Origin: an uncultured Pelagibacteraceae bacterium
GTDB taxonomy: Bacteria > Pseudomonadota > Alphaproteobacteria > Pelagibacterales > Pelagibacteraceae
Length of the DNA: 41,561 nucleotides
Direction: 5' to 3'
Assembly (NCBI GenBank): GCA_902569725.1
Contig: CACFVG010000009.1
Coordinates: forward strand, 1-41,561
Shown piece by piece: positions 36,989 through 41,561 of the stretch (within the stretch, counting starts at the first letter, position 1; each line of letters begins with the position of its first letter). The notes below the pieces were generated by a model. The model searched no databases. It saw only the letters and a program-made list of their open reading frames with translations, and was not told where the DNA came from. The position numbers and the translations under genes were made by a program.

Positions 36989-37549
36989 GTGAGAAAATTA
37001 TTAATTCTTTTATTTATTGTTTTAATTAACAAAACTTCTTTTGCCGAACCTAATAATTTAGAAACTGAAGATTTTTTTTATATTGGTACAATGAAATCTT
37101 ATAATAATGATTTTACACTTTACTTTAAAACGAGAGGAAAAGCAGTATTAGCTAGAGGCGAAGAATTCAATTATATTACTGATTATCCTCAAGATCTATA
37201 TATTTATAATAACCATACCAAATCTGATGAGTCATTAATTTCTTATGATTGGTTTCCCTCAAAAGCAAAACAAATTATAGAAAATTATGATTTTCCAGTA
37301 TTCCCAGAAGATTTTGCATATTATTTATTGAACGATAATAATACTTTAATAATGGTAAGTGCCATCAAAAATATTAATGCTAATTTAGTTTTTGATATTT
37401 CTAAAAGAAATTTAAAAAGATATGACAAAAAGAATAAATTAGAGTTTATAATTTCATCAATTGCAAAGAAATGTGGCTATTTAAGCTTAGATGAAAAATA
37501 TAATTGTAATTATTATAAACCTTTAATTTCTAACAATTTAATTAATTAG
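36989..37549 (+). CDS. Exported protein of unknown function
   Basis: This 186-residue protein has a short signal peptide (MRKLLILLFIVLINKTSFA, cleavage near residue 19). The mature part is acidic and tyrosine/asparagine-rich, with no motif I recognise; two cysteines near the C-terminus (KKCGYLSLDEKYNCNYY) could form a disulfide. The start is GTG at 36989, supported by the signal peptide beginning immediately. Its end overlaps the convergent ftsY by eight bases. Confidence 0.7.
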   Translation: MRKLLILLFIVLINKTSFAEPNNLETEDFFYIGTMKSYNNDFTLYFKTRGKAVLARGEEFNYITDYPQDLYIYNNHTKSDESLISYDWFPSKAKQIIENYDFPVFPEDFAYYLLNDNNTLIMVSAIKNINANLVFDISKRNLKRYDKKNKLEFIISSIAKKCGYLSLDEKYNCNYYKPLISNNLIN

Positions 37550-38459
37550 TTGTAATAAAAGCTTCCGCAAATTGTTCTGCTTTAAAAATTTGTAAATCAT
37601 CTTCCTTTTCACCTAAACCTAAAGCAATAATTGGTAATTTATATTTTTTTGCAATTGCAATTAAAATACCACCTTTTGCAGTTCCATCTAGTTTTGTCAT
37701 AATCAATCCTGTTATTGGAATTATCTTATTAAATTCTTCAACCTGATTAATTACATTTTGTCCAGAAGTTGCATCCAAAACTAATAAAACTTCGTGAGGA
37801 GCATTTGGGTCAATTTTTTTTGTTACATTTGCAATTTTTTTATATTCTTCCATTAAGTTTTTTTTATTTTGAAGTCTTCCCGCTGTATCTATTAAGACAT
37901 GTGTAAATTGATTTTTTATCGCTTCATCTACAGCTTTATATGCAACAGATGCAGGGTCGGATCCTTGAGAAGATTTGATGATTTCTACATCTATTTTTTT
38001 AGCCCAATTTTCTAATTGTTCTATTGCTGCGGCCCTAAATGTATCTGATGCTGAAAAAAGAACTTTATTATCATTAGATTTTAATATTTTTCCTATTTTT
38101 CCTATTGTCGTAGTTTTTCCAACACCATTAACTCCTGAGACAAGAATAGCATTTAAATAATTTTTGTTTTTAAAAAAATTTTCGTTTTCCAACGGAGACA
38201 TTAAATCAATTATATAATTTTTAAGAATTGAATTAATTTCATCAATTTTATTTTTATTTGGATCAATTTTTTTTTCAGATATTATATTTCTAATTTCCTC
38301 AGATGCTGCTACACCTACATCAGATTGAATTAGAAATTCTTCAATTTCATTAAGTGTCTTATCATCTATTTCTTTTTTTATAATTATTTCTTTAAGACCT
38401 GATGTAAAAGTAGACGCACTTTTTTTAAAACCTAATTTAAATTTTTCAAAAATACCCAT
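37542..38459 (-). CDS. ftsY: Signal recognition particle receptor FtsY
   Basis: This 305-residue SRP-family GTPase consists of an N-domain helix bundle and a G-domain: GVNGVGKTTTIGKIG (109-123, Lys115), DTFRAAAIEQL (139-149), DTAGRLQNKKNL, and TKLDGTAKGG. It lacks the long acidic A domain of E. coli FtsY, with a short basic N-terminus (MGIFEKFKLGFKKS) instead, as in many alphaproteobacteria. FtsY docks Ffh-ribosome complexes at the membrane. Its start shares a base with the dapF stop (TAATG). The partner gene ffh lies about 1 kb away on the other strand. Confidence 0.97.
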   Translation of the reverse strand: MGIFEKFKLGFKKSASTFTSGLKEIIIKKEIDDKTLNEIEEFLIQSDVGVAASEEIRNIISEKKIDPNKNKIDEINSILKNYIIDLMSPLENENFFKNKNYLNAILVSGVNGVGKTTTIGKIGKILKSNDNKVLFSASDTFRAAAIEQLENWAKKIDVEIIKSSQGSDPASVAYKAVDEAIKNQFTHVLIDTAGRLQNKKNLMEEYKKIANVTKKIDPNAPHEVLLVLDATSGQNVINQVEEFNKIIPITGLIMTKLDGTAKGGILIAIAKKYKLPIIALGLGEKEDDLQIFKAEQFAEAFITTN

Positions 38460-39283
38460 TAAATATTTATATTAATTTGATCTATATTTGAAACAGGCCC
38501 ACTCATAAAAATATTTTTACTTTCATCTATGAGGATTGATAGTTTTCCTAATTCAAATTCTATTTCAGTTTTATTTTTAATTTTGCCATTAATTTTTGCA
38601 GCATAAGCTGTTGCGCAAGCAGCAGTACCACAAGCTTTTGTTAGCCCAGCACCTCTCTCCCACACTTTAACTTTAATATTATTTTCATTAATTATATTTG
38701 CCAAAGTAACATTACATTTTTCAGGAAATAATTTATCGTTTTCAATTTCTGGTCCAATTTTTTCTAAATTAAAATCTTCTATATTATTTACAAAAAAAAC
38801 GATATGTGGATTTCCAACATTTACTACCGTACCACCAAAATATTCTTTATTATTTTTATCAATAATTTTATATTTCAAATTAATTGTATCTAATTTTTTC
38901 ACTAAAGGAATTTCATTCCAATTAGTTTTTGCTGGTCCTATTTTTGTTTCTACTAATTTCTCACTTAAAATTTTTGATTCTAAATTTCCAGATTCAGTCC
39001 CCAATATAATTTTATTTTTGTGCATTTCTTTTGACAATAAATAAGCTACACATCTAGTTCCATTTCCGCATGCACCAGAAAAACTTCCATCCGAATTATA
39101 AAATTCTATATTAGCATCAATTTTTTCATTTTTTTTTATAAAAATAAGTTGATCGCAGCCAATAAAATTTCTATTACATATTTTTTTAATTTGATCGTTG
39201 CTTAACTCAATTCGATCTTGTCGTTGATCAATGATTACAAAATCATTTCCTAAACCATCCATTTTAAAAGCTTTGAATTCCAT
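38459..39283 (-). CDS. dapF: Diaminopimelate epimerase
   Basis: DapF converts LL- to meso-diaminopimelate for lysine and peptidoglycan synthesis. The 274-residue protein has the start FKAFKMDGLGNDFVIID, the first catalytic cysteine in SGACGNGTRCVAYLL (Cys72), the second in TKACGTAACATAYAA, and the GNPHIVFFV strand. It overlaps ftsY by one base; linkage of dapF with ftsY is common in alphaproteobacteria. It is divergent from ffh across a structured 157-base region. Confidence 0.97.
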   Translation of the reverse strand: MEFKAFKMDGLGNDFVIIDQRQDRIELSNDQIKKICNRNFIGCDQLIFIKKNEKIDANIEFYNSDGSFSGACGNGTRCVAYLLSKEMHKNKIILGTESGNLESKILSEKLVETKIGPAKTNWNEIPLVKKLDTINLKYKIIDKNNKEYFGGTVVNVGNPHIVFFVNNIEDFNLEKIGPEIENDKLFPEKCNVTLANIINENNIKVKVWERGAGLTKACGTAACATAYAAKINGKIKNKTEIEFELGKLSILIDESKNIFMSGPVSNIDQININI

Positions 39284-39332
39284 ATAATAATATTTAACTT
39301 ATTTATTGACTTTTTGAACCTCTATTATAGTT

Positions 39333-39424
39333 TATCGCAGTTTCCGCAAAATAAGCAATTTGCGGTGTCTTTGGTAACAAAGAGATCGACACCAGTCTGC
39401 GAGGGTTCGCCCACTGGTGCGATA
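39333..39424 (+). ncRNA. Candidate structured RNA or leader upstream of ffh
   Basis: The region is GC-rich for this genome and full of paired segments. An outer helix joins TATCGCA (39333-39339) to TGCGATA (39418-39424). Inside are CCGCAAA/TTTGCGG (39344-39350 with 39359-39365), GGTGTC/GACACC (39364-39369 with 39388-39393) capped by TTTG-GTAA-CAAA (a GNRA loop), and ACCAGT/ACTGGT (39391-39396 with 39413-39418) capped by GGG-TTCG-CCC (a UUCG loop). TCGCAG (39335-39340) can instead pair with CTGCGA (39397-39402). A TTGACT box lies at 39306-39311. It ends 16 bases before the ffh ATG. It is not 4.5S RNA: the GGAAGGAAGCAGC core is absent. Confidence 0.65.
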
Positions 39425-39440
39425 GCTGCTGGATTAAAAT

Positions 39441-40799
39441 ATGTTTGAGAATTTGACAAATAAATTTGAAGAAGTTTTTTCTTCACTAAAAAAAGCACCA
39501 TCGCTTGATGAAAAACAAGTTGATGAAGGACTTAGAGGTATAAGACAAGCTTTACTAGAAGCAGATGTGACTTTAGATGTTGCAAAGCAATTCATTGAAA
39601 ATGTTAAGCCAAAAGCTTTAGGTCAAGAAATAATTAGATCTACTTCACCAGGACAAATGGTGGTTAAAATAGTTTACGACGAATTGATAAAATTACTTGG
39701 TGAAAAAAACGAAGATATAAATTTAAATGCAGTTCCACCTGTTCCTATGATGTTAGTAGGACTTCAGGGCTCAGGAAAAACAACTACAACTGCTAAATTA
39801 GCAAAATTTTTAGAAAAAAATAAAAAAAAGAAAATTATGATGGTTAGTCTTGACGTTTACAGACCAGCTGCCCAAGAACAACTTAAATCTCTTGGTGAAC
39901 AAAATAATATTTTAACATTACCAATTATTGAGGGACAATTACCGGCAGATATTTGTAGAAGAGCAATTAGTGCAGCAAACTTAAATGGAGCTGAGATAAT
40001 TCTATTTGATACTGCAGGACGTACTCAAATAGATCTTCAAATGATGAGTGAGATCAAGCAAATAGAAAGCATAATTAAACCAACAGAAACTTTTCTAGTT
40101 GCAGATTCTTTAACAGGACAAGTTGCAGCTGAAGTAGCAAAAGAATTTAAAAATACTGTAAACCTTACAGGTATAATTTTAACAAGAGCAGACGGAGATG
40201 CCAGAGGAGGAGCAGCAGTAAGCATGAAATATGTTTCAAATGTTTCTATTAAATTTTTAGGTATTGGAGAAAAAATCGAAAATTTAGAAGTTTTTCATCC
40301 TGATAGAATTGCAAATAGAATTCTTGGTATGGGAGATATTGTTTCTCTTGTAGAAAAAGCATCTCAAGATTTAAGTGAGGAAAATTTAAAGAAAACAGAA
40401 GAAAATTTAAAAAAAGGTAGTTTTTCTATGGAAGATTATTTAATTCAGTTAAGACAAATGAAAAAAATGGGTGGAATTGAAGGTGTTATGTCTTTTCTTC
40501 CTGGAGTTTCAAAAGTAAAATCTCAAATGGATCAAGCTGGCATTGATGAATCAATTATTTCTCAAAATGAAGCAATAATTTTATCAATGACAAAAAAAGA
40601 AAGACAGAACCCAAAGATTATTGATGGTTCTAGAAGAAAAAGAATTGCTAATGGCTCTGGAACAGATGTGGCCACTATCAATAAATTGTTAAAACAATTT
40701 AAAATGATGTCTGAAATGATGAAAAAGATGTCAAAAGGAAACTTGAAAGGTATTATAGATAAAGGAATACCTCCAGAGCTTTTTAATCAACTAAAATAA
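39441..40799 (+). CDS. ffh: Signal recognition particle protein Ffh
   Basis: Ffh is the SRP GTPase that binds signal peptides and 4.5S RNA. The 452-residue protein has an NG domain with GLQGSGKTTTTAKLA (107-121, Lys113), DVYRPAAQEQL, DTAGRTQIDL and TRADGDARGGAA. Its methionine-rich M domain contains RQMKKMGGIEGVMSFLPG, the RNA-binding helix-turn-helix around SMTKKERQNPKIIDGSRRKR, and KMMSEMMKKMSKG near the end. The length is normal. No clear Shine-Dalgarno precedes the ATG, where the structured leader ends. It is followed by rpsP after 14 bases. Confidence 0.97.
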   Translation: MFENLTNKFEEVFSSLKKAPSLDEKQVDEGLRGIRQALLEADVTLDVAKQFIENVKPKALGQEIIRSTSPGQMVVKIVYDELIKLLGEKNEDINLNAVPPVPMMLVGLQGSGKTTTTAKLAKFLEKNKKKKIMMVSLDVYRPAAQEQLKSLGEQNNILTLPIIEGQLPADICRRAISAANLNGAEIILFDTAGRTQIDLQMMSEIKQIESIIKPTETFLVADSLTGQVAAEVAKEFKNTVNLTGIILTRADGDARGGAAVSMKYVSNVSIKFLGIGEKIENLEVFHPDRIANRILGMGDIVSLVEKASQDLSEENLKKTEENLKKGSFSMEDYLIQLRQMKKMGGIEGVMSFLPGVSKVKSQMDQAGIDESIISQNEAIILSMTKKERQNPKIIDGSRRKRIANGSGTDVATINKLLKQFKMMSEMMKKMSKGNLKGIIDKGIPPELFNQLK

Positions 40800-40813: not shown

Positions 40814-41212
40814 ATGCTAAAACTTAGATTATCTATGGGAGGAACAAAAAAAAGACCCGTATATAAAATTGTAGTAGCAGACAGTAGGTTTGCAAGAGAC
40901 GGAAGGTTTATTGAAAAACTTGGTTTTTTTAATCCCCTGCTTCCAAAAGAAAAAAAAGAAAGAGTAGGATTAGAAAAGGAAAGAATTAAATATTGGCTAA
41001 GCCAAGGTGCTCAGCCTACAACAAGGGTAGCAAGAATTCTTGGTGAAAACGAAATGATGGAAATGCCTCCGAAGGGTAATAATCCACAAAAAGCTATACC
41101 AAAAAAAGATAGAAAAAAAGAAGAAGGAGAAGCAAAAAGTGAAGCTTCAGCTGACGCTCCAAAAACGGAAGAAAAAAAAGCTGACGCTCCAAAAACGGAA
41201 GAAAAAAAATAA
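40814..41212 (+). CDS. rpsP: 30S ribosomal protein S16 with repeat-bearing C-terminal tail
   Basis: Residues 1 to about 80 are a normal S16: [20 protein letters not shown], then [20 protein letters not shown] and [20 protein letters not shown]. After this comes a tail of about 50 residues, charged and alanine-rich, ending in a tandem [10 protein letters not shown] repeated twice. Extended S16 tails are common in alphaproteobacteria. A strong Shine-Dalgarno AAGGAG (40803-40808) sits five bases before the ATG, in contrast with ffh. trmD starts two bases after the stop. Confidence 0.97.
41150..41209 (+). repeat. Two tandem 30-bp exact repeats in the rpsP tail
   Basis: The units at 41150-41179 and 41180-41209 are identical over 30 bases. 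Each encodes [10 protein letters not shown] in frame and contains a run of eight A's. The stop codon follows the second unit directly. The copy number could vary among strains by slipped replication. Confidence 0.95.
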
Positions 41213-41214
41213 AA

Positions 41215-41561
41215 ATGTTACTTGCTCGAATATTTACTCTTTATCCAGAATTTTTTCCGGGACCTTTGGGAAAAGGTCTTTATGGCAAAGCATTAGCTGA
41301 AAAAATATGGAAACTAGAAACAATAAATATTAGAGATTATGCAAATGACAAACACAAGACAGTTGATGATACTACTTATGGTGGAGGATCTGGAATGTTA
41401 ATCAAACCAGATGTTCTTGCAAATTCTTTAGACAAAAATTTGAAAACTAAAGAAAAAATAATTTATTTAAGTCCAAAGGGAAAATTATTTAACCAAGAAA
41501 TGGCAAAAAAAATTTCTAATGAAGAAAATGTTAACTTGATTTGTGGACATTTCGAAGGTGT
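41215..41561 (+). CDS. trmD: tRNA (guanine-N1)-methyltransferase TrmD, 5' part
   Basis: The first 115 codons are present; the rest lies past the window edge. TrmD methylates G37 of tRNAs with the SPOUT fold. The sequence starts MLARIFTLYPEFFPGPLGKG, then INIRDYANDKHKTVDDTTYG with the GGGSGMLIKPD motif, IIYLSPKGKLF, and LICGHFEGV, which precedes the knotted SAM site. In many bacteria rimM lies between rpsP and trmD; here only two bases separate them. Confidence 0.96.
   Translation, partial: MLLARIFTLYPEFFPGPLGKGLYGKALAEKIWKLETINIRDYANDKHKTVDDTTYGGGSGMLIKPDVLANSLDKNLKTKEKIIYLSPKGKLFNQEMAKKISNEENVNLICGHFEG

Follow-up and report, generated by a model that had tools for sequence, protein, structure and literature searches.

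The window analysed here, the whole 41,561-nucleotide stretch of a contig from an uncultured Pelagibacteraceae bacterium, carries toward its end a gap of 157 nt between dapF (38459-39283, minus strand) and ffh (39441-40799, plus strand), and a structured leader lies within this gap. The Ffh protein encoded here is 97-98% identical to those of its six nearest named Pelagibacteraceae relatives. On the same strand, ffh is followed by rpsP (40814-41212), which encodes ribosomal protein S16, the source of the regulator proposed below, and by trmD (41215-41559), which is cut by the window end. On the other side, ftsY, dapF and ffh are adjacent (37542-40799), with ftsY and ffh flanking dapF in opposite reading directions. 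The spacing between rpsP and trmD is 2 bases (41212-41215), leaving no rimM between them; the E. coli operon is described with rimM in this position (PMC10931766). The 3′ end of rpsP (41145-41212) is a short coding repeat in which a 10-residue unit occurs twice, and S16 tails are likewise extended and repetitive in an order, discussed below, where Ffh was not detected.

Aligned leaders share one arrangement: TTGAC, 16-17 nt, a TAnnnT hexamer, six variable bases, and then the conserved RNA. In the window, these elements correspond to a putative -35 box, TTGACT (39306-39311), whose TTGAC is invariant in 38 leaders; a putative -10 box, TAGTTT (39328-39333; 1.43 bits per column), which in relatives lies 16-17 nt after TTGACN; and a discriminator (39334-39339) that is presumably untranscribed and is the least conserved stretch, at 0.49 bits per column. 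Conservation resumes at 39340, near which we infer the transcript start, and the predicted leader RNA would run from there to the ffh start codon (39340-39440). A generic promoter scan listed two other sites, and the TTGACT/TAGTTT promoter was absent from its list.

The segment 39333-39424 folds at -35.2 kcal/mol (z -4.72), and none of 200 dinucleotide shuffles was as low. For comparative analysis, 134 SAR11 loci were reduced to 88 unique leaders, and 38 of these at least 5 edits apart were aligned; a 135th locus (L157) was left out for having too little upstream DNA. Three hairpins are conserved and covary among the 38: H1 (39344-39365), H2 in its short form (39368-39383), and H3 (39390-39419), which has a C39397/C39412 mismatch and an inner stem at 39399-39402/39407-39410. 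Taken together, 98.4% of their pair cells are standard and 9 of 24 pairs have changed on both sides, and the covariation score, 0.188 against 0.106 for shuffled alignments, was reached by none of 500 shuffles. H1 is paired in 96.2% of cells and H3 in 100%, the latter with 2 doubly changed pairs. Beyond H3 lies a conserved tail (39420-39434), containing TGCTGG here and a GTTTGG-like motif in the class, as judged from rough position frequencies after H3.

An earlier note on this DNA had drawn a 7-bp closing helix (39333-39339/39418-39424) around the three hairpins and allowed its 5′ strand an alternative partner (39335-39340/39397-39402), so that the leader would switch between two competing pairings. 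Relatives give neither pairing any preference over shuffled columns: across the 38 leaders, 54.8% of closing-helix cells pair against a shuffled mean of 54.3%, and 48.7% of cells of the alternative against 48.6%. The closing helix is complete in 4 of the 38 rows, one of which (L070) carries a compensatory change; it is missing from the minimum-energy fold, and the single pair tested has probability 0.0. The alternative is complete in one row, that of the window, and requires T39398, which was found in 7 of 46 unique SAR11 H3 hairpins in a rough, pattern-located listing. Moreover, the shared 5′ strand consists of the last base of the putative -10 box (39333) and the variable discriminator, and because of this position it is probably not transcribed; on relatives' pairing and promoter position together, we rejected both pairings. 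A UUCG tetraloop was also proposed, and what is kept in all 38 rows is a GCGA/UCGC stem instead. The loop read as GUAA in the window is, by eye, of GNRA type among main-group leaders and takes other forms outside that group. What survives of the earlier description is the structured block with its three conserved hairpins, placed directly before an ffh gene that, also by eye, lacks a clear Shine-Dalgarno sequence, while the closing helix, the switch and the UUCG cap find no support.

Given 33 sequences (L166, L175 and L170 were omitted; the search pattern failed on L166, and L170 and L175 entered the later alignment), RNAalifold chose, instead of H1, a four-pair extension of H2 (39363-39366/39385-39388), which with 39368-39373/39378-39383 makes up an extended H2 (39363-39388). 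H1 and extended H2 share 39363-39365 and are mutually exclusive. H1 is present in all 33 of these sequences and unrecognisable in much of the class. A 49-sequence set was then assembled from 22 SAR11 leaders, 11 from other Alphaproteobacteria with H1, 11 from the order without detected Ffh, and 5 more. The four basal pairs of extended H2 are standard in 49 of 49 sequences, a figure to be read with the fact that rows added beyond the first 33 were picked by a findable [CT][GA][GA]T start, so that the 5′ strand was partly selected and the 3′ partner letters were not. Two of these pairs show double changes (CG to UA and GC to AU) and the other two single changes. Extended H2 and H3 together pair in 92.2% of cells over the 49 rows, with 15 of 20 pairs doubly changed (9 of 12 in H3) and a covariation score of 0.462 against 0.185 shuffled; none of the 49 rows has a standard pair at one of the 20 core positions, the one next to the C/C mismatch. 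The conserved core of the element is thus, on comparative evidence, two tandem hairpins followed by a short tail. As a separate observation, the position next to the mismatch is U/C in the window, A/C in most class genomes, as if standing in for a pair, and C/G, U/A or G/U elsewhere; these class-wide frequencies are rough because H3 was located by a pattern that picked some wrong hairpins (for example, in L182 and L241).

A structured RNA before ffh is already a catalogued family. The whole-window Rfam scan at gathering scores returned a single match, RF01793 (ffh), at 39375-39427 on the plus strand, with 50.3 bits against a gathering score of 35, and the site has the features of that family, namely a bulged, covarying hairpin with two cytosines, C39397 and C39412 by position, located before ffh. 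The candidate Pelagibacter RNA at ffh that the earlier note mentioned does exist: it is the ffh motif of Meyer 2009 (PMC2704228). Within the order to which the window belongs, 268 of 297 genomes carry an RF01793 match. In a set of 385 alphaproteobacterial genomes, the RF01793 model found 121 at E 0.01, of which 81 were over the cut-off, and our model of the two-hairpin core (R2) matched 203 at E 0.001 or better, leaving 182 without a match; the yield is about 1.7 times as many genomes, at different E limits. In a phylum sample of 299 genomes, 63 of 63 R2 matches fell within the same class. A second, weak R1 match in locus L050 (23.8 bits, other strand) was dismissed as chance. The RF01793 model thus covers a portion of the element and not the whole of it.

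Outside the window's order, RF01793 matched 116 genomes, and gene context was counted in 101 of them; among the 15 uncounted, G469 was read within the order without detected Ffh. The element, ffh and rpsP follow one another on one strand in 91 of the 101, and in 3, all of one family, the element is followed by rpsP. In 4 more, ffh follows, and past it the contig stops (G394, G647), the stretch read stops (G519) or a chimeric join intervenes (G524); the 3 with neither gene comprise two false matches (G374, G510) and one short contig (G317). At the join (locus L275, contig C222 of G524), a truncated ffh gives way to replication genes that have no relation to it, a pattern suggestive of chimeric assembly. 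New R2 sites tell the same story: among the 46 listed, 40 were read, and all 40 precede ffh, with rpsP behind it in 39 and a contig end in 1; the other 6 and the unlisted sites are outside this count, and for G374, which is among the 46, RF01793 had also given a match, at a false site. RF01793 and new R2 contexts combined, the element adjoins the start of the operon in 134 of 134 sites with a readable operon gene. Within SAR11, rpsP comes after ffh in 80 of 80 named loci, and trmD and rplS follow as well in all 64 loci with more than 1.6 kb beyond ffh. In G309 and G441, from another family, neither trmD nor rplS was found within about 7 kb after rpsP. Because ffh went undetected in one order and neither trmD nor rplS turned up after rpsP in these two genomes, rpsP is the one gene common to all carriers read far enough. 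Distances vary: H3 lies 17 to 292 nt from ffh across carriers (21 nt in the window), and rpsP lies 1.95-3.7 kb after ffh in 4 genomes.

The order without detected Ffh (that of G345; loci L202-L215 and L252-L255), to which the family with element and rpsP alone belongs, is represented by 18 genomes of 0.9-1.4 Mb, 6 of them at least 90% complete. The element occurs in 14, and in all 13 of the 14 loci that could be read it stands before rpsP, with the S16 reading frame starting 39-46 nt after the core pattern. Promoter and leader are both kept directly before rpsP, as is the conserved tail, and by eye H3 varies among these genomes by paired changes. Tested at 11 loci from 7 genomes, the divergent neighbour was dapF every time, and trmD and rplS follow rpsP in 3 of 4 longer stretches, the fourth meeting a contig end. 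The Ffh M domain (PF02978) was detected in 0 of the 18 genomes against 14 of 14 controls, and PF00448, which is common to Ffh and FtsY, exceeded its cut-off in 0 of 18 against 7 of 7 other Alphaproteobacteria, with one sub-threshold match in G679 (20.5 bits). SRP RNA was likewise found in 0 of 18 against 11 of 14 controls, a silence that is weak because the 16S rRNA family, searched for with the same tool, was recovered from no more than 1 of 3 genomes and 9 of 14 controls. Since Ffh, FtsY and SRP RNA went undetected while the element sits before rpsP with dapF upstream, the gene once lying between leader and rpsP, ffh, appears to have been lost and the leader retained. An alphaproteobacterial order with small genomes that had, as it appears, lost the whole SRP pathway (Ffh, FtsY and SRP RNA) would be notable in itself. 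We guess that this order resembles HIMB59; we recognised no report of SRP loss in such bacteria in the literature searched, and PMC3264578, in the portion available, is silent on Ffh in HIMB59.

These observations suggest that the leader serves rpsP rather than ffh itself. With modest confidence, we favor the view that the element is a cis-acting leader of the ffh-rpsP-trmD-rplS operon, most likely bound by S16. As expected of a ribosomal-protein leader, covarying structure is found at the start of a ribosomal-protein operon. Our proposal of S16 is made because rpsP is common to the carriers, because ribosomal leaders described so far each bind the product of a gene under their control, and because an S16 leader has been proposed in Flavobacteria (PMC7247131). 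Free operon product, most likely S16, would bind the H2-H3 core and lower expression of the operon, probably by acting at translation initiation near the first start codon, because in the window 21 nt separate the end of H3 from the start codon. Protein binding, S16 as ligand and translational control are all what we infer from sequence comparison. The argument from the separation of ffh and element rests on one lineage, the order described above, and a leader could also be retained for causes unrelated to S16 when the promoter next to it is required. Translational control is less well suited by an H3-ffh distance that reaches 292 nt and by rpsP placed 1.95-3.7 kb downstream, and L19, TrmD or a further product could take the place of S16 as ligand. 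The 182 of 385 class genomes with no R2 match also count against this reading. Some ribosomal-protein leaders resemble the rRNA site of their ligand; in a sequence comparison with one SAR11 16S rRNA, 65 of 200 shuffles scored as high as the leader and 127 of 200 as high as H3. A fuller version is possible, and we advance it tentatively: the ffh RNA may be an S16-bound, autoregulatory rpsP-trmD leader through which synthesis of SRP protein keeps pace with ribosome assembly, one order having lost SRP and kept the control. If the leader does answer to S16, one widespread RNA would explain control of this operon in Alphaproteobacteria and would tie the SRP protein to ribosome production.

Regulation directed at ffh is one competitor. 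The leader might bind Ffh that is unoccupied by 4.5S RNA, or sense SRP RNA; the earlier note had suggested sensing of 4.5S RNA or Ffh. We consider this unlikely: in most carriers the element is followed first by ffh, and Meyer 2009 raised a role in ffh regulation, without demonstration, yet the element persists before rpsP in the order where Ffh, FtsY and SRP RNA went undetected, and the published motif is described as having no likeness to the Ffh-binding part of 4.5S RNA (PMC2704228). Nor does the leader show complementarity to SRP RNA beyond that of shuffles, 177 of 200 and 51 of 200 being as low on the two strands, and an antisense role was rejected on these figures. The possibility that the leader site itself encodes SRP RNA was rejected as well, with no match to RF00169, the bacterial small SRP RNA that partners Ffh, up to E 10; the genome's own candidate lies elsewhere, matching at full length with 38 bits, where the gathering score is 40. 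The earlier reading thus holds as far as a structured ffh leader is concerned and is unsupported for competing pairings and for sensing of Ffh or 4.5S RNA. A leader of the same operon that is read by L19 or TrmD, or that reports a general translation state, would account for trmD and rplS following in most carriers; it has little probability in our estimate, given that G309 and G441 carry the element with neither gene within about 7 kb after rpsP.

Two further possibilities concern the RNA itself. That the ffh leader releases a trans-acting small RNA is suggested by the Rfam typing of RF01793 as an sRNA, by detection among small RNAs as cited in Meyer 2009 (PMC2704228), by the inclusion of ffH leader RNA among the expressed sRNAs of Bartonella bacilliformis (PMC7717549), and by T-rich bases after H3 in many class genomes in a rough listing. 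We find it improbable nonetheless, because the element stays beside the operon start wherever an operon gene could be read, and because the terminator scan lists nothing after H3 in the window, its only site being H1; for the latter reason, we did not adopt an intrinsic terminator after H3. That H1 is listed as terminator-like (1 site against an expected 0.1) could instead favor switching, in lineages that have both helices, between H1 and extended H2. Their overlap, and close energies in the window (-30.2 and -28.7 kcal/mol), point the same way, as does a shared column where, in 5 of 33 rows, C has become U along with a change in its extended-H2 partner, joined in 3 of those 5 by a change in the H1 partner. 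Such a switch is nevertheless very improbable in our judgment: independent events are few, H1 is lost from view in much of the class, and once the outer H3 extension is included, H1 prevails in the window (0.91 against 0.06 for extended H2). The S16-bound operon leader remains the reading that we favor.

No assignment of function to RF01793 was found in the literature searched, and according to a 2024 review nothing is known of the regulation of the rpsP, rimM, trmD and rplS operon, at least in the part of that text considered here (PMC10931766). In Sinorhizobium meliloti, the dapF-ffh region holds a candidate RNA, sm5, of about 120 nt, whose Northern blot is marked as not done (PMC2573895). 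A table assigns RF01793 to an intergenic RNA on a Mesorhizobium huakuii plasmid (PMC5596092), which we count against the rpsP-leader reading. As far as the literature searched shows, the two-hairpin core, its wider range, and the evidence tying the RNA to a ribosomal-protein operon are new.

Among known systems, leaders of L19, described in Firmicutes and Flavobacteria, resemble the present case in that the L19 gene belongs to the same operon in Alphaproteobacteria; the leader studied here matched no Rfam family but RF01793 above chance. The S16 leader proposed in Flavobacteria, with S16 as its ligand (Eckert and Weinberg 2020, PMC7247131), is likewise a structured RNA upstream of rpsP, a likeness drawn by description only and with a representative of another phylum. 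The ffh motif itself is the same RNA; Meyer 2009 presented it as one bulged, covarying hairpin that carries two conserved cytosines and lies before ffh (PMC2704228). H3, its two bulge cytosines and its location before ffh correspond to that description. The element differs from it in having a second covarying hairpin in its core where one hairpin was described, and in standing, in one order, before rpsP rather than ffh.
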